Below are positions 9,618-31,247 of a stretch of DNA of 31,432 bases, piece by piece. The notes below the pieces were generated by a model. That model saw only the letters and a program-made list of their open reading frames with translations, did no database searches and was not told the DNA's origin. The DNA comes from a virus, in IMG/VR virus record IMGVR_UViG_3300013131_000156, positions 1-31,432 of that record; one strand, written 5' to 3'. Position 1 is the stretch's first letter. Each line of letters opens with the position of its first letter. The position numbers and the translations under genes are program-made.

Positions 9618-10960
9618 TGATTACCATTCCATTTATATTGAACACCTGTAGTCAGGTTGCTTACATATTGTAAACTCGTAGTACTTTGGCTGTCAAATGA
9701 AACTACCCAATGACTGCCGTTATATTGTATAATATCGTTAGCACGTGCTACTAGAGCAACACTGTCTGCACCTCGCCAAGCAACTGCATCATTACCTGGA
9801 GCATTACTATAATTACCAATATCTGCTAGGATTAGATAACGGGTACCTGATGTTGGACTCGTCGGTGCTGACTTAGTGGGATCAATAATAGCGTTAATGG
9901 CAGTAAGCGTATTGCCTGGTTTAGTATCAATGTCAACATTGAAGATTAGTTGACTAGTGTCGGTTGGGTGGTAACTTACCGTACCTATAACTTCAGTAAT
10001 ACCATCTTCTTGCAGCAGTCTAACTTGACTGATACCGTTGTTTAGTTCGCCATACATGTTGATCAGCTTATGCCAATCATCTTTGGTGCCTACTTTAGTG
10101 GGTGTTTCTAGTGTAGGCGGGTCTCTAGGATCCGCAAACTCGCTAATTTTTAATAAGGTTAAAGTATTACCTATTAGTAATACACCATACATAAGTGGAG
10201 TAAAGTATTGACGAGATCCTAATAGGTTGTCTTCACTGTAAACAGCATCACTTAAGTTGCCGTCTGCATCATGTATACTAGCAATAATCTTTTGAATTAC
10301 GCCAAGTTTTTTAACCTTAGCAGGCGGACTAATCCATACAGGTAGTTTGAATGTTAGTGTAGCTACATCAATTGGGTTTTCTGTGCCGATAGGAACACTA
10401 CGACTAGTCCAATTAGGACTTTCTAAGTAAACCACACTTAAACTTGTCCAGTCGATGTAGTTGTCTGTACTTTGTATTTCTAGTGCAGGATTAAACAATA
10501 CAATAAGTTGCTCTAGTAACTGCAATTTTTGTTTAGTATTACTAGTCCAGATGTCTAATTTAAGTTCAATAGTGTACGGAACAGGCATCATACGTTCAAT
10601 AGTAAACGCATTACCTTGACGATTTTCGAACTCTTGGGTATCTTCGTTGTAGTAACGCTCACGAATGTTCATCTTACCGATAAAGTCTGGTTGTTGCACA
10701 CGATCCCTATCATAGGTAAGGTTATTTACATACACAGTCATAGCAGGCACAGTTGGCATAACACTACCTGAACTGTTATTACTGATGATCATTTGTACTT
10801 GTCGACTGCTATCACCCCAGTAAACTGGTACACGCTGTAAGGTTTTGTTACCATCACGATCTGCACCATACTCAACTTGGAAACCCGATACCATACGAAT
10901 GAACTGCGCTAAGAAGCGTTCTATTTGCGCATCATAGAAAAACTGTTGACTTGCTACCAT
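9560..10960 (-). CDS. 15: gp15-like tail terminator / sheath stabiliser
   Basis: The N-terminal 230 residues follow the T4 gp15 pattern. There is FFYDAQIERFLAQFIRM at residues 7-23, then RVPVYWGDSSRQVQ, a TVPAMTVYVNNLTYDRDR segment, then PVPYTIELKLDIWTSN and a C-terminal LTFKLPVWISPP strand. In T4 gp15 caps the tube and sheath and joins the tail to the neck. At 466 residues it is far longer than T4 gp15 (about 270). The extra 200 residues hold Trp/Tyr-rich modules (NDIIQYNGSHW and VQYKWNGNQW) ending in a GLWTLVL tail. Its ATG overlaps the gp14 stop by one base (TAATG). The gp15 assignment rests on motif pattern plus gp14 adjacency. Confidence 0.75.
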   Translation of the reverse strand: MVASQQFFYDAQIERFLAQFIRMVSGFQVEYGADRDGNKTLQRVPVYWGDSSRQVQMIISNNSSGSVMPTVPAMTVYVNNLTYDRDRVQQPDFIGKMNIRERYYNEDTQEFENRQGNAFTIERMMPVPYTIELKLDIWTSNTKQKLQLLEQLIVLFNPALEIQSTDNYIDWTSLSVVYLESPNWTSRSVPIGTENPIDVATLTFKLPVWISPPAKVKKLGVIQKIIASIHDADGNLSDAVYSEDNLLGSRQYFTPLMYGVLLIGNTLTLLKISEFADPRDPPTLETPTKVGTKDDWHKLINMYGELNNGISQVRLLQEDGITEVIGTVSYHPTDTSQLIFNVDIDTKPGNTLTAINAIIDPTKSAPTSPTSGTRYLILADIGNYSNAPGNDAVAWRGADSVALVARANDIIQYNGSHWVVSFDSQSTTSLQYVSNLTTGVQYKWNGNQWLKSYEGEYKEGLWTLVL

Positions 10961-12414
10961 TATATATTATCCGCTGAAGGACGCAAGGCTTGTGACAAGC
11001 TCTGACGTTCGTTGATTACATGTCTATAAACTGTGTATTCCAATAAACTACCTACAGTAGGTTGACTTGTAATAGTAAATCCTATGTTGCCGCTAACATT
11101 AGACATGGTATTAGTAATAGGTATACCATTCAGTTTTGTTCTCACACCATAGGTGCTTGTATATGGGACTTTAGTAACTACAGTCCCATATGGACTTGTA
11201 TTGCTTAAAGTAAACGATATAGTTGATGCGTTAGCTTCTGGAGTGTATGCACTTGATACACGAATAGCGTCCCAAGCTGCCGCGTTACTCATAAATTTCT
11301 CGGTATTGTTTACAAAGCCACTGCGTTGTGTTGTATTGTTTATACCTGGTGTTAGATTTGTTCTCACCGCATCCTCTACCTTAACCCAACGACGGCCATC
11401 ATAACGGAACAAGCGATTAGGTTGATAATCTAAACGTAGGTAATAAGTACCGACCCCTGGATCAACTGGGAAGCTAATGCCAGCTGCAACGGTTCCACCA
11501 TTTGGTGCAGTACCATCACCGGTTAAGTACCCTTCTACTTTAACTGTTGAAGTCAAATATTGGTCACTAGCATCATCTATAGTAGTACTAGCATCAATCA
11601 CGGTTCCATCTAAAGTATGTGTCGCTTGGCTAGCGTCTAACCCATTAGGATTGCTAGGTAATCCATCTGGACCCAAGGCTAAAGTATAAATTGAGCTGGT
11701 ATCATATCCGCTCTTAGGTACATCGGTTTCTGCACGCTGTACAACAGCATCATTAATTTCAATAAGTTTGTTGTACGTGCTGAGTAGATCAGTAAGAGCG
11801 CGATCGCTGCTATCAACAACACCATCGCCGTTCATGTCTAAGTTGTTGATAATATCTTTGTATTCTTGGCTGTCTACCAATGGTTGTATTTTAACACGCC
11901 ATAAGTGTGGATACCATAGAGGACTAAAGCCTTCCGCTGCACGGGTAGCATCCTGCACTACATAAAAACGTTTAAGTACCACAGGAACTGTATCATCCAG
12001 TGGATAGTAATCTTTTAGGAACGGCATTTCTAACACATCACCTACCATGATCTTACGACCTAAGGTGTCAATCATGTCATTAAGATGGAATGTGGCAAAT
12101 ATAGTATCGCCGGTTAGGAATAACCCAAACTGCGTTAAGTCAAAATCACTATCGTTAATTCGAAACTGTGTACGCATTGTATAAACACTAGTGTCATACT
12201 TACGATCACGGTTTTCTAAAAATAACAGATCTTGTATGGCTGTAATACCAGTAGTGCCGGGTTCTGTATTGCTAACAAAACCAGTGTCTTGTACACCCAA
12301 ATATTTGTGTAAATTAATATCAACACCGCCCACAGTGAACTGTTCGCTGATATTTCTATCAATAAATTGATAATCGCTACCTTTCTGCGGTCTGTAAAGT
12401 GATAATCTTGGCAT
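10960..12414 (-). CDS. 14: gp14-like neck protein with C-terminal extension
   Basis: Residues 60-185 fit the T4 gp14 neck protein. A LLFLENRDRKYD segment is followed by SDFDLTQFGLFLTGDTIFATF, then GDVLEMPFLKDYY and a final LWRVKIQPLVDSQEYKDI. gp14 and gp13 form the neck through which head and tail join. The protein is nearly twice the length of T4 gp14 (256). After the core comes an EF-hand/dockerin-like loop, D193-x-N195-x-D197-G-x-V-D201-x-x-D204. A YYLRLDYQPNRLFRYDGRRW module (about 325-345) and an Ig-like C terminus follow. It is first in the - strand late operon, with AGGAA 8 bases before the ATG and a late core 22 bases upstream. Normally it lies beside gp13, but here it is inverted away from it. 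Confidence 0.7.
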   Translation of the reverse strand: MPRLSLYRPQKGSDYQFIDRNISEQFTVGGVDINLHKYLGVQDTGFVSNTEPGTTGITAIQDLLFLENRDRKYDTSVYTMRTQFRINDSDFDLTQFGLFLTGDTIFATFHLNDMIDTLGRKIMVGDVLEMPFLKDYYPLDDTVPVVLKRFYVVQDATRAAEGFSPLWYPHLWRVKIQPLVDSQEYKDIINNLDMNGDGVVDSSDRALTDLLSTYNKLIEINDAVVQRAETDVPKSGYDTSSIYTLALGPDGLPSNPNGLDASQATHTLDGTVIDASTTIDDASDQYLTSTVKVEGYLTGDGTAPNGGTVAAGISFPVDPGVGTYYLRLDYQPNRLFRYDGRRWVKVEDAVRTNLTPGINNTTQRSGFVNNTEKFMSNAAAWDAIRVSSAYTPEANASTISFTLSNTSPYGTVVTKVPYTSTYGVRTKLNGIPITNTMSNVSGNIGFTITSQPTVGSLLEYTVYRHVINERQSLSQALRPSADNI

Positions 12415-12436: not shown

Positions 12437-12444
12437 TATTTATC
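12437..12444 (-). promoter_or_regulatory. Late promoter core for gp14-gp15-Nudix operon
   Basis: On the - strand this reads GATAAATA. With T4 late geometry transcription would begin at about 12431, leaving a 17-nt leader that contains TAGGAA ahead of the gp14 ATG. Unlike most late cores here, no convincing flanking inverted repeat is seen. Confidence 0.7.
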
Positions 12445-12449
12445 AAGTC

Positions 12450-12478
12450 TTGACAACCTACCAAATTGATGTTATACT
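12450..12478 (+). promoter_or_regulatory. Consensus sigma70 promoter, divergent from the late promoter
   Basis: TTGACA (12450-12455), a 17-bp spacer and TATACT (12473-12478) form a near-perfect host sigma70 promoter. The +1 expected seven bases past the -10 box is 12485, exactly the A of the next ATG. It is read by host RNA polymerase and so probably acts early. The -35 box is only six bases from the - strand late core, so the two may compete. Confidence 0.8.
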
Positions 12479-12484
12479 ACGAAA

Positions 12485-12754
12485 ATGAATAATCAAATAC
12501 AAACAAGTATGGATTGGGCAAAGGTGCAAACAAACATAGAAGCACCTGTGTATAAAATGAAAAGATACAACCATGAAATGTTTAAGGTAAGTAGAAACAT
12601 TGGGTACATGATTAGTGCGCTAAGTAAAGAAGAAGTAAACTGTCGTAAATTGGGCAAGCAAACAGAAAGACACAAAGAAATGCTTGACAAAATAAACGAA
12701 GAGATAGCAAACTATGAACGTATGATAACTTTTGCTGTATTATTAGCGGGATAA
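12485..12754 (+). CDS. Small unknown protein, probably early and leaderless
   Basis: The 89-residue product is unrecognised. It is charged and helical, with a likely coiled coil over residues 40-80 (SKEEVNCRKLGKQTERHKEM and following). It has a short hydrophobic end (FAVLLAG). No Shine-Dalgarno sequence precedes the ATG, and the sigma70 promoter places +1 on the ATG itself. An ATG at 12509 also lacks a ribosome site. The gene heads a three-gene unit on the + strand between the inverted gp14-gp15 block and gp13. Function unknown. Confidence 0.65.
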   Translation: MNNQIQTSMDWAKVQTNIEAPVYKMKRYNHEMFKVSRNIGYMISALSKEEVNCRKLGKQTERHKEMLDKINEEIANYERMITFAVLLAG

Positions 12755-12759
12755 ATTAT

Positions 12760-12966
12760 ATGGTAATTATGAGTATTGAAGAAGCATACCGCGCAGTGCG
12801 TGACTATGGTGAAATGAATGAACACTATAGTTTATGGTCAGCGGTTAAGTGTATGGAAGATGCGTGGGATGATCTAGACTCATATGATCGTACAGCATAT
12901 AAAATGGTTAAACGAGAATTATCAAATCTAGTAACAAAAACAGTAGAGGAAAAACATGGCAATTAA
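12760..12966 (+). CDS. Small acidic protein of unknown function
   Basis: The 68-residue protein begins five bases after the previous stop, with GGGA eight bases before the ATG. A second in-frame ATG at 12769 would give a product starting MSIEEAYRAVRDYG. The sequence is rich in aromatic and acidic residues (MEDAWDDLDSYDRTAYKM) and probably all-helical. It overlaps the next gene by 11 bases, which supports co-translation. No family is recognised. Confidence 0.6.
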   Translation: MVIMSIEEAYRAVRDYGEMNEHYSLWSAVKCMEDAWDDLDSYDRTAYKMVKRELSNLVTKTVEEKHGN

Positions 12967-14164
12967 AATTGACGGCGCAAAGAAAAAAACTAAGGTAGTA
13001 GCACGAGACCCTATTTTCTTAGATGAAAAAGCAGTGGGTACAGAACCAGTCTGGGACGCACAACGAGCAATAGAGTTTACAGACGAGGTATTTGACCATA
13101 ACTTCCGTAAAAGTATGCGCTACTATAACTATTTCTACTCTACTAAAGATCTTAAGAAATATCTGGTAGAGTGGTTGCGCACACATGAAGGCAAGGACGG
13201 AGAGTACCATCACTTAGATAAGAAAACTATTGACTATTATGCCAAAACTAGAGATAATTTAACTCCATTTACTGCCTGTGCCATCGCAAAAGCACATACA
13301 CAAGGCATGCCCCTACGTGATCGTCATGTAGAGTATCTACTTAAAACAGTTAAAGAAGTTATCAAACTGCAAGAAGAGATAGTAGAAGAAGATGTTCCCG
13401 CTGATGACAGCAAGAAGGCACCTAAGACTGACGTAAAGGTGCCTACAATACAAGATCGCATGAACGCAATAGCAGACAAGCACCAGCTACACTTTTTAGA
13501 ACTAGAAGATCAACTGTTTGCTGGTGAAACTGTGGACCCTAAAGCCTACGAGTATCTAATTGGCAAAAATGTAGCACCTGCTACTTTAGCACGTATTCTT
13601 AGTCCTTTTGAACGTAGCCGAACAGAGTTTGCTGAGGCACGCACTAGTAAAGATGAAGATACTAAAGATGCGTACGGGCATTTAAAAACTGCCGACTATA
13701 AACGCTACGATGCGTTTTATACTGCGCTATTTGATGGTTTTGCTCAATACGGCCAAGTTAAGAAAGCAACTAAGAAAGCGGCTGTACGCAAACCGCCAGC
13801 AAAAGAAAAACTGGTTGCTAAACTTAAGTATCTAAAAACAGACACCGCAACTAAAGCAGTAAGTATTAATCCTGTTGATATTATTGGCTCTCAAATATTG
13901 TGGGTTTACAATATTAAGACACGCAAACTGGGCAAATATGTAGCTGAAGAATACAGTGCGCTTAATGTTAAAGGTACTACTATTACAGGATATAGTGAAA
14001 GTAAGAGCGTAAGTAAAACTCTACGTAAACCTGAAGTACAAATAAAAGAGTTTTTAGGTGCAAGTAAAGTTGATTTGCGTAAGTTCCTTGAAAACATCAA
14101 AGCCACCGAAGTAAAATTGAACGGGCGCATTAACCAAGATACAATCTTGCTAAAAGTTCAGTAA
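12956..14164 (+). CDS. Conserved marine T4-like phage protein, function unknown
   Basis: This 402-residue protein is preceded by GAGGA. Its N-terminal 150 residues are helical with many aromatics (FRKSMRYYNYFYSTKDLKKY). A short acidic linker (EEDVPADDSKKAPKTD) leads to a second helical region, then a lysine-rich hinge (KKATKKAAVRKPPAKEKL, about 275-292). The C-terminal 110 residues form a compact domain with ILWVYNIKTRKLGKY, then KTLRKPEVQIKEF and a final EVKLNGRINQDTILLKV. Proteins with this ending are widely conserved in marine T4-like phages without an assigned role. It lies in the sigma70-driven unit, so it is probably made early; the basic hinge would allow nucleic-acid binding, but that is speculation. 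Confidence 0.65.
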   Translation: MAIKIDGAKKKTKVVARDPIFLDEKAVGTEPVWDAQRAIEFTDEVFDHNFRKSMRYYNYFYSTKDLKKYLVEWLRTHEGKDGEYHHLDKKTIDYYAKTRDNLTPFTACAIAKAHTQGMPLRDRHVEYLLKTVKEVIKLQEEIVEEDVPADDSKKAPKTDVKVPTIQDRMNAIADKHQLHFLELEDQLFAGETVDPKAYEYLIGKNVAPATLARILSPFERSRTEFAEARTSKDEDTKDAYGHLKTADYKRYDAFYTALFDGFAQYGQVKKATKKAAVRKPPAKEKLVAKLKYLKTDTATKAVSINPVDIIGSQILWVYNIKTRKLGKYVAEEYSALNVKGTTITGYSESKSVSKTLRKPEVQIKEFLGASKVDLRKFLENIKATEVKLNGRINQDTILLKVQ

Positions 14165-14170
14165 ACGAAA

Positions 14171-14210
14171 TTATCCTGTTATCAACGATAAATACTTGGT
14201 AACAGGATAA
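14171..14210 (+). promoter_or_regulatory. Late promoter in hairpin loop that masks the gp13 ribosome site
   Basis: TTATCCTGTTA (14171-14181) and TAACAGGATAA (14200-14210) form a perfect 11-bp stem with an 18-nt loop. The late core GATAAATA occupies loop positions 14187-14194. The expected late start is about 14200, the first base of the right arm. The gp13 ribosome site AGGA (14204-14207) is inside the right arm. Read-through RNA from the upstream sigma70 unit would fold and hide the site, while late RNA would lack the left arm and be free. No U-tract follows, so a terminator role is less likely. Confidence 0.75.
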
Positions 14211-14215
14211 TTTAC

Positions 14216-15130
14216 ATGTCATTATTACCAGCAAACGTATCAGCACAAAGCGGCTTAACAGCTAATCTTAGCTTAACCACAGAAAGCCTCTATAATCCAG
14301 TAACTGGCACTGGTGCAGGCCCTATTGCTTTTGATGCTAATCTACAAGCACAATTAACCACAGTACAAAGCCTGCAGAACGATATCACTGACTACATTCG
14401 ATTGCGTTTGGGTTATGGTATGATTGATGTTGAGGCTGATAAAGAACATTTTGATATGGGGATTAAACAAGCATTGATCCGTTATCGTCAAAAGAGTTCA
14501 AACGCAGTTGAAGAAAGTTATGCGTTCTTAGATATCTATCCTGAAACACAAGAATATATTCTCCCTAACAATATTATGGATGTTAAACAGATTTATCGAC
14601 GTGGTATTGGTAGCGTTACAGGTACAACTGCTAGCCAATTTGAACCATTTGCAAGCGGCTATTTAAACACTTATATGTTAGTAGCTGGCCGTGTTGGTGG
14701 GTTAACTAACTACGAATTATTTGTAGATTATCAAAAACTTGCTATGCGTATGTTTGGCGGCTTTATGAACTTCTACTGGAACAAAGTTACTAAGAAACTC
14801 ACTTTAGTTCGCAAACAACCATTCCAGGGTGCTAATAATACAGCACAATCTGAAACAGTTATGTTACATGTGTTTAATGTTAAACCAGATATTGTATTGT
14901 TAAACGATCCGCAGGCATTTCCATGGATTCAAGACTATGCGTATGCACTAACATCGATTAGTGTTGGTCAAGCACGTGAAAAATTTGCATCTATTGCTGG
15001 CCCACAAGGTGGCACGACCCTAAACGGTACAGCTATCAAAGCAGAAGGGCAGGCCTTGCTAGATAAATTAGACGAAGAAATCAAAAATTATGTAGACGGT
15101 GGTCAACCATTAACTTGGATTATGGGCTAA
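14216..15130 (+). CDS. 13: gp13-like neck protein
   Basis: The protein has 304 residues, close to T4 gp13 (309). A diagnostic segment begins NDITDYIRLRLGYGMIDVEA (about residues 55-74) and continues DMGIKQALIRYRQKSS. It corresponds to the gp13 N-terminal helix bundle that recognises the connector. A strand-rich region (YAFLDIYPETQEYILPNNI) and long helices toward the end follow. gp13 joins gp14 to close the head portal after packaging and receive the tail. The ATG follows AGGA by eight bases, and this site lies in the stem described above. Its usual partner gp14 is on the opposite strand 1.8 kb away. Confidence 0.8.
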   Translation: MSLLPANVSAQSGLTANLSLTTESLYNPVTGTGAGPIAFDANLQAQLTTVQSLQNDITDYIRLRLGYGMIDVEADKEHFDMGIKQALIRYRQKSSNAVEESYAFLDIYPETQEYILPNNIMDVKQIYRRGIGSVTGTTASQFEPFASGYLNTYMLVAGRVGGLTNYELFVDYQKLAMRMFGGFMNFYWNKVTKKLTLVRKQPFQGANNTAQSETVMLHVFNVKPDIVLLNDPQAFPWIQDYAYALTSISVGQAREKFASIAGPQGGTTLNGTAIKAEGQALLDKLDEEIKNYVDGGQPLTWIMG

Positions 15131-15870: not shown

Positions 15871-16171
15871 CAACTTCGTACTGACAGTTAGCACAGATTG
15901 TTTTTAAGTTAGTTAGACTGTTATTATTAAGATCACCATCGATATAGTAAACAAATAGTTGATCTTTATACTTTGCCTTAAAGCCGCACTTTTCACAGTG
16001 CGGTTTCTTTTTATATCCAGCTTTATGCCAACCAGGTACCTGCGGCGGCAAACGTTTCTTTTTACGAATACAACTGTCACAACGACTCCTATAATATGTC
16101 TTACCCCACATCTTATAGTTGACTGCACAGGGCTTTTTACCACAAACCTCACATAATTTTCTGTATTCCAT
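15821..16171 (-). CDS. Cys-rich HNH-like protein with catalytic His replaced
   Basis: Starting at the ATG (16171) the product is 116 residues; a TTG at 16186 would add five residues (MAKYH). Two Cys pairs in the N-terminal half (CEVCG and CDSCIRKKK) and two in the C-terminal half (CEKCG and ICANCQ) suggest two zinc ribbons. The second encloses LFVYYIDGDLNNNSLTNLKT. This matches the HNH core xxHHIDGDxxNNxxxNLxxLC except that both histidines are tyrosines. Homologues occur in marine T4-like phages. The Tyr-Tyr change would remove the general base of an HNH nuclease, so a DNA-binding role without cleavage is more likely. It is transcribed against its neighbours, and no clear promoter is seen. 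Confidence 0.7.
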   Translation of the reverse strand: MEYRKLCEVCGKKPCAVNYKMWGKTYYRSRCDSCIRKKKRLPPQVPGWHKAGYKKKPHCEKCGFKAKYKDQLFVYYIDGDLNNNSLTNLKTICANCQYEVAREGLGWRQGDLVPDF

Positions 16172-16212
16172 ATGGTATTTAGCCAATAGCAGTGCGCGAA
16201 CCTTTCAAAGGG

Positions 16213-16260
16213 CACTTTAAACCACTGATTTAACCAAATAATAATAAATAGTTTAAAGTG
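16213..16260 (+). promoter_or_regulatory. Late promoter for gp18 in an inverted repeat
   Basis: CACTTTAAAC (16213-16222) pairs with GTTTAAAGTG (16251-16260), a 10-bp perfect stem. The core AATAAATA (16243-16250) is the last part of the 28-nt loop and touches the right arm. The expected start is about 16256. The resulting 31-nt leader contains AGAGGA ahead of the sheath ATG. The left arm is partly duplicated next to itself (ACCACTGATTTAAC), which allows an alternative fold. Confidence 0.65.
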
Positions 16261-26581: not shown

Positions 26582-26611
26582 TTCTAACAGATAAATAACT
26601 ATATGTTAGAA
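26582..26611 (+). promoter_or_regulatory. Late promoter in inverted repeat covering the HNH start codon
   Basis: TTCTAACA (26582-26589) and TGTTAGAA (26604-26611) form a perfect 8-bp stem. The core GATAAATA (26590-26597) begins the 14-nt loop. With the core at -13 to -6, +1 is 26603, the A of the ATG. Two bases of the start codon are in the right arm, so read-through RNA would hide it. T4 homing endonuclease genes such as I-TevI and mobE use a similar late-promoter/hairpin arrangement. Confidence 0.7.
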
Positions 26612-28904: not shown

Positions 28905-28915
28905 ATAAATAATGT
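28894..28915 (+). promoter_or_regulatory. Late promoter in inverted repeat across the gp17 end
   Basis: ACATTAT (28894-28900) pairs with ATAATGT (28909-28915), a 7-bp stem with an 8-nt loop. The core GATAAATA (28904-28911) starts on the last base of the gp17 stop TAG and runs into the right arm. The expected +1 is 28917, the A of the next ATG. A competing palindrome CTACAT-T-ATGTAG (28892-28904) overlaps the left arm, so two folds are possible. Confidence 0.65.
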
Positions 28916-28916
28916 T

Positions 28917-31247
28917 ATGAGAGAAATTAATAAAATCGCAGAAGGCCTATTTGAGAAAATTCGTGACCGATTTGAAGATGTTAGTTTGGGTGATGAAAAT
29001 GCACATGCTACACAAAATCCAGAAGATGCACGTTTTTTCAATTTTGACTATGTAGTTGATGGTCACAACTACGGCAATATTACACTTAGCGTCATTGATG
29101 AAACAAGTCTGAAAGTTTATTTTAGTAAAAACATCAGTCACGACCTAGATGACGAGCAACGCAAGCATTGGTACAGTTTCCTTAGAGAACTGCGTGAATT
29201 TGCTAAACGTAATCTACTAAGTTTTGAGCCACGTGATATTACACGGTCAACTCTTAAACACCGCGATATCCAACAAATTTCTAAAGCTGATAACACATAC
29301 GATAAAGACGAAGTTATTGGCGAAAGTCGCTTATATGGTACTAGCCGTAGTAGCTATGAAAATGATGGCCCTGTGCGTATTATTATCCGCCACAGCGATC
29401 ATATTAACCCAGAATCTCGTGGAAGTCGTAGCCGTAAAATCCGTGCTATGTACTTAGAAAACGCAGAAGGCGAACGTCTAAAACTACCACACAACAGTCT
29501 ACGCTATGCTCGTGCTATGGCCCGTCATTTACAAGAAGGCGGCAGCATCGGTGATGAGTTTGGACAGCACATTACAGAAATTGCAGAAGAGTGTAGCAAG
29601 TTAAAACCATTTAAATCTGCTATGATTCGCAGAGTATTTGAAGATGGCGAAACGCAGGCAATGGTAGAAGCTGCATTTGAATACCACGGCCTACTAAAAG
29701 ACACACTAGGTAAAATGAGCGGTCGTAAGGGCTACCAACAATGTAAAGAACAGTTTGTTGCTACTAGTACCAGCTATGTTCCAGAAGAAGATTTTGATGC
29801 TGACAGTGTCAGAGAACGTTTTGTAAAACGTACATATAATGATCGCATGAATGATGCGCTACCTATTGTATACAAGGCTTATAACATGAAGAAAACTAAT
29901 AAAATGGCAGAAGCCTTTGAAGGCTGGGCAAACAATGTAGCAGAAAGCTGGGACGAGGATGAAGAAGGCGTTAAACAATGGGGTATAGAACCTATTAACG
30001 TTGATGACTTGGCTGATTTATTTGCTGAAGAATTACCACTAGGTGTCGATGCTGTAAATGCTATTAATGCTGTCAGTGGTGTTATTAATAGTAACGAATT
30101 GGATGAAGTACTCTTGCACACAAGTAAAGCAAATCCAGAATTGGACGCTCGTGATGTAATTTTATCATGGTTGGAATCAAATGTACCAGCAGTGTTCCAA
30201 GAATTACAAAATGAAATTAACGAATCAGAATCCGGAGATTCACCATTTGACCGTATGAGCAGAGCGGAATTATTAGATTATTTAAACCTAAACCCACTAA
30301 AAGCACAAAATATTCCAAACGAAGAACTACGTGCTGCCGCAGAAGAACGCTCGCTCGATATGACAGAGGGTAATACCTACGGTAGTTACGGTGCAGTATA
30401 TGAAGATGATGAAGATCAAGTGGAAAGTATCACTTCAGCAATCGTACGTAGAATATTAAACAATATTGGCCAACACAGTGAATTATTAAGAAAAGCAGGA
30501 CCAGACGGTGTACTTAATGCTGCACGTGACGTAGCAAGTTTTCACGCACCGGTAGAAGAATTGGGCTCGAGTGACATCAGCAACATGGTTCGTGAAGTAT
30601 ACCTTGAAGTTGGTGTAGACTACCCGGAACTAAATGAAACTCCGTTACGTCAAGCAAGAACACCAAGTAAAAAAGCCCGCGACGCAAAATATTATGATTA
30701 CCTAGCAAGAACGTTAGGTGAAAATTTAGAATCAATGGCTCCAGCAGATAGTTCTAGCCCTTTAACTCACGCACATGAAGCATACTGTGATGCTTGTGAT
30801 CGCACAGCAGACCAATGTGTTTGTGATGATGAACTAGATGAAGGTCGTGTAAAAGAAGTTAGTATAGATCTTGAAGAACTGACAGATGAAGAATTCAAGG
30901 CAAAATATGGAAAAACCAAAGAAGAAGTAAAACAAGCACTGTCAGAAGGTCTATCAGGCTTACAAAAATTAGGCGCTGGCGCGGCATTAATTGGTGCATT
31001 ATCAACTAACGCATACTTAGATAATAAAGCAGTAGAATCGAGTCCGCAAGTACAAAAACTAGAACAACTATATCAGCAAGCACTAGCAAATGATGACGTT
31101 CAAAAAGCAAATGAATTAGAAGATAGAATTGAAAATCTTAAGGCACGCATTGAACTAGGCAAAGGTGAAGTACTAGATAAAGACGGTAACCCGATCGAAC
31201 CAAAATACGAAAGTATACAAGATATTAGAACTCTAGCAGGCTTATAG
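28917..31247 (+). CDS. Large acidic virion-type protein with Cys cluster
   Basis: The N terminus MREINKIAE-G fits a capsid-targeting peptide with (I)-x-E cleavage. Residues 40-130 (FNFDYVVDGHNYGNITLSVI, then LRELREFAKRNLLSFEPRDI) and 180-215 (RKIRAMYLENAEGERLKLPH) are conserved in marine T4-like phages. The middle is acidic and helical. The C-terminal part has C624-x2-C627-x6-C634-x-C636 and a Gly/Ala hydrophobic segment LQKLGAGAALIGAL (682-695). A coiled coil (LEQLYQQALANDDVQKANEL) and a final DIRTLAGL ending at the last residue follow. This shares three elements with the 782-residue protein. No Shine-Dalgarno sequence precedes the ATG. Probable internal or ejected head protein; role unproven. 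Confidence 0.55.
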   Translation: MREINKIAEGLFEKIRDRFEDVSLGDENAHATQNPEDARFFNFDYVVDGHNYGNITLSVIDETSLKVYFSKNISHDLDDEQRKHWYSFLRELREFAKRNLLSFEPRDITRSTLKHRDIQQISKADNTYDKDEVIGESRLYGTSRSSYENDGPVRIIIRHSDHINPESRGSRSRKIRAMYLENAEGERLKLPHNSLRYARAMARHLQEGGSIGDEFGQHITEIAEECSKLKPFKSAMIRRVFEDGETQAMVEAAFEYHGLLKDTLGKMSGRKGYQQCKEQFVATSTSYVPEEDFDADSVRERFVKRTYNDRMNDALPIVYKAYNMKKTNKMAEAFEGWANNVAESWDEDEEGVKQWGIEPINVDDLADLFAEELPLGVDAVNAINAVSGVINSNELDEVLLHTSKANPELDARDVILSWLESNVPAVFQELQNEINESESGDSPFDRMSRAELLDYLNLNPLKAQNIPNEELRAAAEERSLDMTEGNTYGSYGAVYEDDEDQVESITSAIVRRILNNIGQHSELLRKAGPDGVLNAARDVASFHAPVEELGSSDISNMVREVYLEVGVDYPELNETPLRQARTPSKKARDAKYYDYLARTLGENLESMAPADSSSPLTHAHEAYCDACDRTADQCVCDDELDEGRVKEVSIDLEELTDEEFKAKYGKTKEEVKQALSEGLSGLQKLGAGAALIGALSTNAYLDNKAVESSPQVQKLEQLYQQALANDDVQKANELEDRIENLKARIELGKGEVLDKDGNPIEPKYESIQDIRTLAGL

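Follow-up and report, generated by a model that had tools for sequence, protein, structure and literature searches.

A conserved hairpin around a late promoter suggests translational control of the T4 lysozyme type for the neck gene of uncultured T4-related phages

Translational control by a hairpin that surrounds a late promoter has been described for the T4 genes e, soc, 49, I-TevI and segB, and for Aeh1 mobE (PMC3014915, PMC2988022). In I-TevI, segB and mobE, the early and middle read-through RNA folds over the ribosome binding site, and a late start frees this site (PMC2988022). Here, we describe a similar arrangement in front of a neck gene on a stretch of viral DNA of 31,432 nucleotides (IMG/VR record IMGVR_UViG_3300013131_000156, positions 1 to 31,432), which we refer to as the window. 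In the literature searched, which was covered in part, we found no description of this type of control on a neck gene, and gene 13 of T4 itself, which follows wac, is not arranged in this way.

The gene in question (positions 14216-15130, plus strand) encodes a 304-aa neck protein of the gp13 family (head-tail adaptor Ad2), matching PHROG 211 with an E-value of 5.7e-32. Ahead of it, a left arm at 14168-14185 (AAATTATCCTGTTATCAA) pairs with a right arm at 14196-14213 (TTGGTAACAGGATAATTT), both read on the plus strand, forming 18 pairs (17 Watson-Crick and one G-U) around a 10-nt loop (CGATAAATAC). The loop contains a T4-type late promoter core, ATAAATA (GATAAATA, 14188-14194, plus strand), while the gp13 Shine-Dalgarno sequence (AGGATAA, from 14204) lies within the right arm, followed by the ATG at 14216. 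The initial annotation had correctly put the late core in the loop and the ribosome site in the right arm. The perfect 11-bp stem it reported (TTATCCTGTTA/TAACAGGATAA) is indeed perfectly complementary, but it is only the inner part of the 18-pair stem. The hairpin has a minimum free energy of -20.8 kcal/mol, against -9.2 kcal/mol (sd 2.6) for shuffled sequences (z -4.4; 0/200 shuffles as good). In 60 Markov-shuffled windows, the longest stem per window was 11-15 bp, and 18 bp was never reached. Rfam covariance models gave no match to 13900-14500 up to E = 1.

This arrangement very probably controls translation of the neck gene as a switch of the T4 lysozyme type. RNA from a sigma70 promoter further upstream would run through a gene of the PHROG 11903 family into gp13, where the 18-bp hairpin would pair the Shine-Dalgarno sequence and leave gp13 untranslated. 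In the later phase, RNA polymerase carrying a gp55-type sigma factor of the phage would start at the GATAAATA core in the loop. From the spacing of T4 late promoters, we place this predicted start at about 14200, so the late RNA would begin in the right arm and be translated, the left arm occurring in read-through RNA only. The window is itself a 31-kb fragment, and gp55-like sigma factors are encoded by its close relatives G001 (E 1.3e-6) and G005 (E 6.1e-7). Folding predictions bear out that the fold hides the Shine-Dalgarno sequence in read-through RNA and not in late RNA. Its predicted probability of being unpaired is 0.001 in the read-through RNA, making it the most occluded of the 24 gene starts in the window, versus 0.34-0.45 in RNA starting at 14199-14203, which is within the range of other genes. 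Since the read-through RNA would fold over the ribosome site and the late RNA cannot, synthesis of the neck protein should be confined to the late phase.

The position of the stem relative to the upstream gene may modify this picture. In most relatives, the stem starts within 30 nt of the upstream stop codon or overlaps it, which might allow ribosomes that terminate there to open the stem briefly. If this happened regularly, the two genes would be translationally coupled, and gp13 synthesis from read-through RNA would scale with translation of the PHROG 11903 gene. As coupling would predict, only 3 nt separate the stop codon of this gene from the stem in the window, and in some relatives the two overlap, but other relatives have a gap of 12-28 nt between the stop and the stem. 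Ribosomes usually reinitiate poorly over a distance of about 50 nt, and a stem of more than 20 kcal/mol should refold fast. We therefore regard coupling as very unlikely, and prefer a switch set by which of the two RNAs is present.

The early-type unit that would supply the read-through RNA lies entirely on the plus strand. It consists of two small ORFs without a family match (12485-12754 and 12760-12966), and ends with the PHROG 11903 gene, of unknown function (12956-14164). In front of it is a pattern match to an early sigma70-type promoter (12450-12478, plus strand; TTGACA-17-TATACT with a TG extension). The consensus promoter claimed at this position by the initial annotation is thus a real pattern, scoring 11/12 with an extended -10. 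A sigma70 match of 11-12/12 is found upstream of gp13 in 127/133 relatives with enough sequence, mostly 1.2-2.5 kb away. Only a few bases from this promoter lies the late core (ATAAATA, 12437-12443, minus strand) of a divergent structural gene (10960-12414). This back-to-back layout (12437-12478), in which the late core points leftward and the consensus-like sigma70 promoter rightward, recurs in relatives. In some relatives (L007, L077), the upstream unit contains another candidate for a late core, which we rejected; it resembles coding sequence and is absent from the window. Scanning the plus strand for terminators revealed none from the promoter to the hairpin in the window, and none in the last 1.6 kb ahead of the hairpin in 56 relatives. 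Read-through into gp13, as we infer for this locus, is in keeping with the conserved sigma70 promoter, the lack of terminators in these scans and the co-directional upstream unit.

The same observations could be read in another way, with the hairpin ending or protecting the 3' end of the early-unit RNA (as a terminator, an RNase III site or a stabilising 3' stem) and the hiding of the Shine-Dalgarno sequence being a by-product. The hairpin does directly follow the unit's last stop codon, and no other terminator was found between the early promoter and gp13. However, the stem is A+T-rich, is followed by ACATG instead of a U-tract, and was not flagged by the terminator scan. Relatives also keep the Shine-Dalgarno sequence in the right arm and the late core in the loop, which would be needless for a terminator, and in some of them (L399) the left arm lies within the upstream coding sequence. 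A role at the RNA 3' end is hence unlikely, and the translational switch remains our preferred explanation.

To see how far the hairpin extends among related phages, we compared gp13 relatives of 72-100% identity, which are encoded on 80 viral contigs. Where the upstream sequence is included, the loop nearly always contains ATAAATA and the right arm nearly always contains the Shine-Dalgarno sequence, despite differing arms. One closer relative (L078) is without the stem, and in another (L052) a paired GGATAA directly follows the core, remote from the start codon. In some relatives (L033, L034, L043 and L048), the stem extends, such that the gp13 start codon and second codon pair with bases to the left of the left arm. 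We also searched viral contigs for the DNA pattern of hairpin and core, finding at least 119 matching stretches. Among the matches listed, 113 of the 116 examined precede gp13 (112 gp13 relatives down to 36% identity and one gp13 fragment), and the remaining three precede an HNH homing-endonuclease-like ORF. Ahead of such an ORF, L133, L149 and L172 have a hairpin of the form ATCCTGTT...ATAAATA...AACAGGAT, like T4 I-TevI and Aeh1 mobE.

The initial annotation had proposed looking for covariation of the two arms in relatives, and this is indeed seen. We aligned 33 relatives, chosen for having ATAAATA, so the invariance of the core in all 33 reflects that choice. The structure of the window pairs 85.9% of cells in this alignment versus 33-51% in slid controls, and 9/18 pairs have changed on both sides. 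The covariation score is 0.191 versus 0.105 in shuffles (0/500 as high) and at most 0.065 in slid versions; as relatedness alone can beat shuffles without any structure, we give more weight to the slid control and to the complete exchange of the arms in other lineages.

An inverted repeat centred on a late core could instead act as DNA, for example as an operator or cruciform bound by a dimeric regulator. The I-TevI operator, a DNA site overlapping a late promoter, provides a precedent (PMC2988022). However, the imperfect pairs in 21 distinct fixed-geometry hairpins include 25 G-U versus 2 A-C (in seven and two different columns, respectively, with cells being non-independent events). DNA-level symmetry would favour neither, so the excess of G-U points to sense-strand RNA. 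This wobble pattern is a misfit with a fixed protein site, as is the wholesale replacement of the arms in other lineages with pairing kept. A DNA-level function is therefore highly improbable, and these data argue for a hairpin that forms in RNA, as the switch would require.

Gene order around gp13 provides a natural experiment. We added about 217 further, more divergent gp13 loci to the comparison, and counted a hairpin where the duplex was at most -10 kcal/mol and z at most -2. In a large group of phages (for example Atu_ph07, Phosso, L268 and L316), gp13 is directly divergent from a homologue of the structural gene at 10960-12414, with no early unit between them, while the early unit occupies precisely this place in the window's group. 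When loci were clustered at 95%, a hairpin was present in 62/74 of the clusters whose upstream neighbour is co-directional versus 2/27 of those where it is antiparallel (Fisher p = 1.4e-12). The corresponding numbers were 29/38 versus 1/9 with 80% clustering (p = 5.5e-4) and 11/16 versus 0/5 with 65% clustering (p = 0.012), although all of these p-values overstate the certainty, as the clusters share ancestry and are not fully independent lineages. XaC1 and GAP32, scored as co-directional misses, have true hairpins with the core within the stem. Six distant co-directional clusters with a PHROG 11903 gene (L084, L212, L237, L331, L368 and L379) are without a strong hairpin, so the early unit permits a hairpin and is not always accompanied by one. 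The absence of the hairpin beside an antiparallel neighbour supports the proposed switch, in which only a co-directional unit would deliver read-through RNA.

The antiparallel exceptions, such as L316 and L352, resemble mirrored Shine-Dalgarno sequences of divergent genes. Such trivial symmetry, where the ribosome site of a divergent gene yields an inverted repeat with that of gp13, accounts for these exceptions. Extending it to the window would require a leftward gene start at 14168, but there is none, and the upstream neighbour, the PHROG 11903 gene, is on the gp13 strand in 180/180 relatives where it was found. The chance that the hairpin in the window arises in this way is thus negligible.

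We also investigated whether other late promoters carry similar hairpins. In G001, a 189-kb relative (the 188,801-base record of L136), gp13 is a clear outlier among 20 late cores before ORFs, with a hairpin z of -7.8 and a duplex of -22.4 kcal/mol; the next-best late core has a z of -2.5. A weaker candidate is found at position 41821 (minus strand) of the same genome, where a late core preceding a 971-aa ORF is flanked by AATTATCCA and TGGATAATT. Relatives with the gp13 hairpin also conserve the late promoters of the sheath gene and the divergent structural gene, but the stems there do not exceed background, and we thus rejected the sheath promoter as a second switch. In the window, short inverted repeats around the late promoters at 16245, 22871 and 26591 had raised the idea that hairpins are a general feature of late promoters. 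This was also rejected; the repeat at 16245 is not kept in relatives, and only gp13 stands out clearly among the 20 cores of G001.

The other late promoters of the window show some features of their own. At the sheath late core (16213-16260), relatives keep the leader GTTTAAAGTA that follows the core, and do not keep the inverted repeat. Several relatives have a leftward small CxxC-type ORF with its own ATAAATA between the kinase and sheath genes (15900-16230); the window is without this core. The late cores at 26591-26605 and 28905-28919 are separated from an ATG by only about 5 nt, suggesting leaderless late RNAs or misplaced starts.

Taken together, the covariation, wobble bias, occlusion of the Shine-Dalgarno sequence, conservation, specificity and gene orientation support, at the level of sequence, the proposal of the initial annotation that gp13 would be kept silent until late transcription.

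Similar structures also occur in more distant phages. The neck-gene leaders of Munch, XaC1, Hallingskeid, K64-1, GAP32, CBB and PBECO4 have folds of -19 to -30 kcal/mol. These seven giant phages share with the window the gene family, the Shine-Dalgarno sequence in the right arm and the co-directional genes upstream. They differ in that their arm sequences are unrelated, their upstream genes are others (several of the neck genes are near macro-domain, NUDIX, thioredoxin or glutaredoxin genes), and the late-type TAAATA core is located at the top of the stem or in the left arm, partly in the stem. ATAAATA was earlier proposed as a late motif in CBB and GAP32 (PMC5259590). PA5oct also has co-directional genes upstream, with weak structure only. 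Perhaps this control has repeatedly come to act on the neck gene among T4-like giant phages, where an early-type unit in front tends to give rise to a hairpin over the ribosome binding site around the late promoter, with arms differing by lineage, though we put this forward tentatively and at somewhat less than even odds. If so, premature neck protein may harm assembly or the early phase of infection. The conserved hairpin itself already singles out the neck protein as a component of the virion for which there may be selection against early synthesis. It also extends a form of control known from a handful of T4 genes to a testable rule in a large, uncultured group of T4-related phages, namely that gene order predicts an RNA switch. 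The set of hairpins is unusually well conserved, and is suited to bench work.

Among the described systems, T4 gene e is similar in that its late core (TATAAATA) lies in the loop and its Shine-Dalgarno sequence in the right arm, that it follows early-type genes of the same strand, and that its late RNA is without the left arm (PMC3014915). It differs in that a lysis gene is controlled, that there are two late promoters, and that the stem is weaker (duplex -13.8 kcal/mol versus about -23 kcal/mol for the gp13 hairpin). T4 soc likewise is a virion-protein gene after co-directional genes with a late-type core in the loop (PMC3014915), but it encodes a small capsid accessory protein and has a short, A+T-rich stem (duplex -9.5 kcal/mol). 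Scored in the same way, the T4 leaders of e and soc have z values of -3.6 and -3.3, and T4 gene 49 is not recovered by this metric. I-TevI, segB and Aeh1 mobE differ in being mobile endonuclease genes, and I-TevI additionally autorepresses through DNA binding. The initial annotation called the window's locus a textbook-clean version of the T4 lysozyme control. The anatomy is the same, with the late core in the loop and the Shine-Dalgarno sequence in the right arm, but it is of the ordinary e, soc and I-TevI type. Judged by comparison of genomes, the neck-gene hairpin is a new and widely conserved case of the control known from T4 e, soc and I-TevI, and the comparative support for it is unusually strong.
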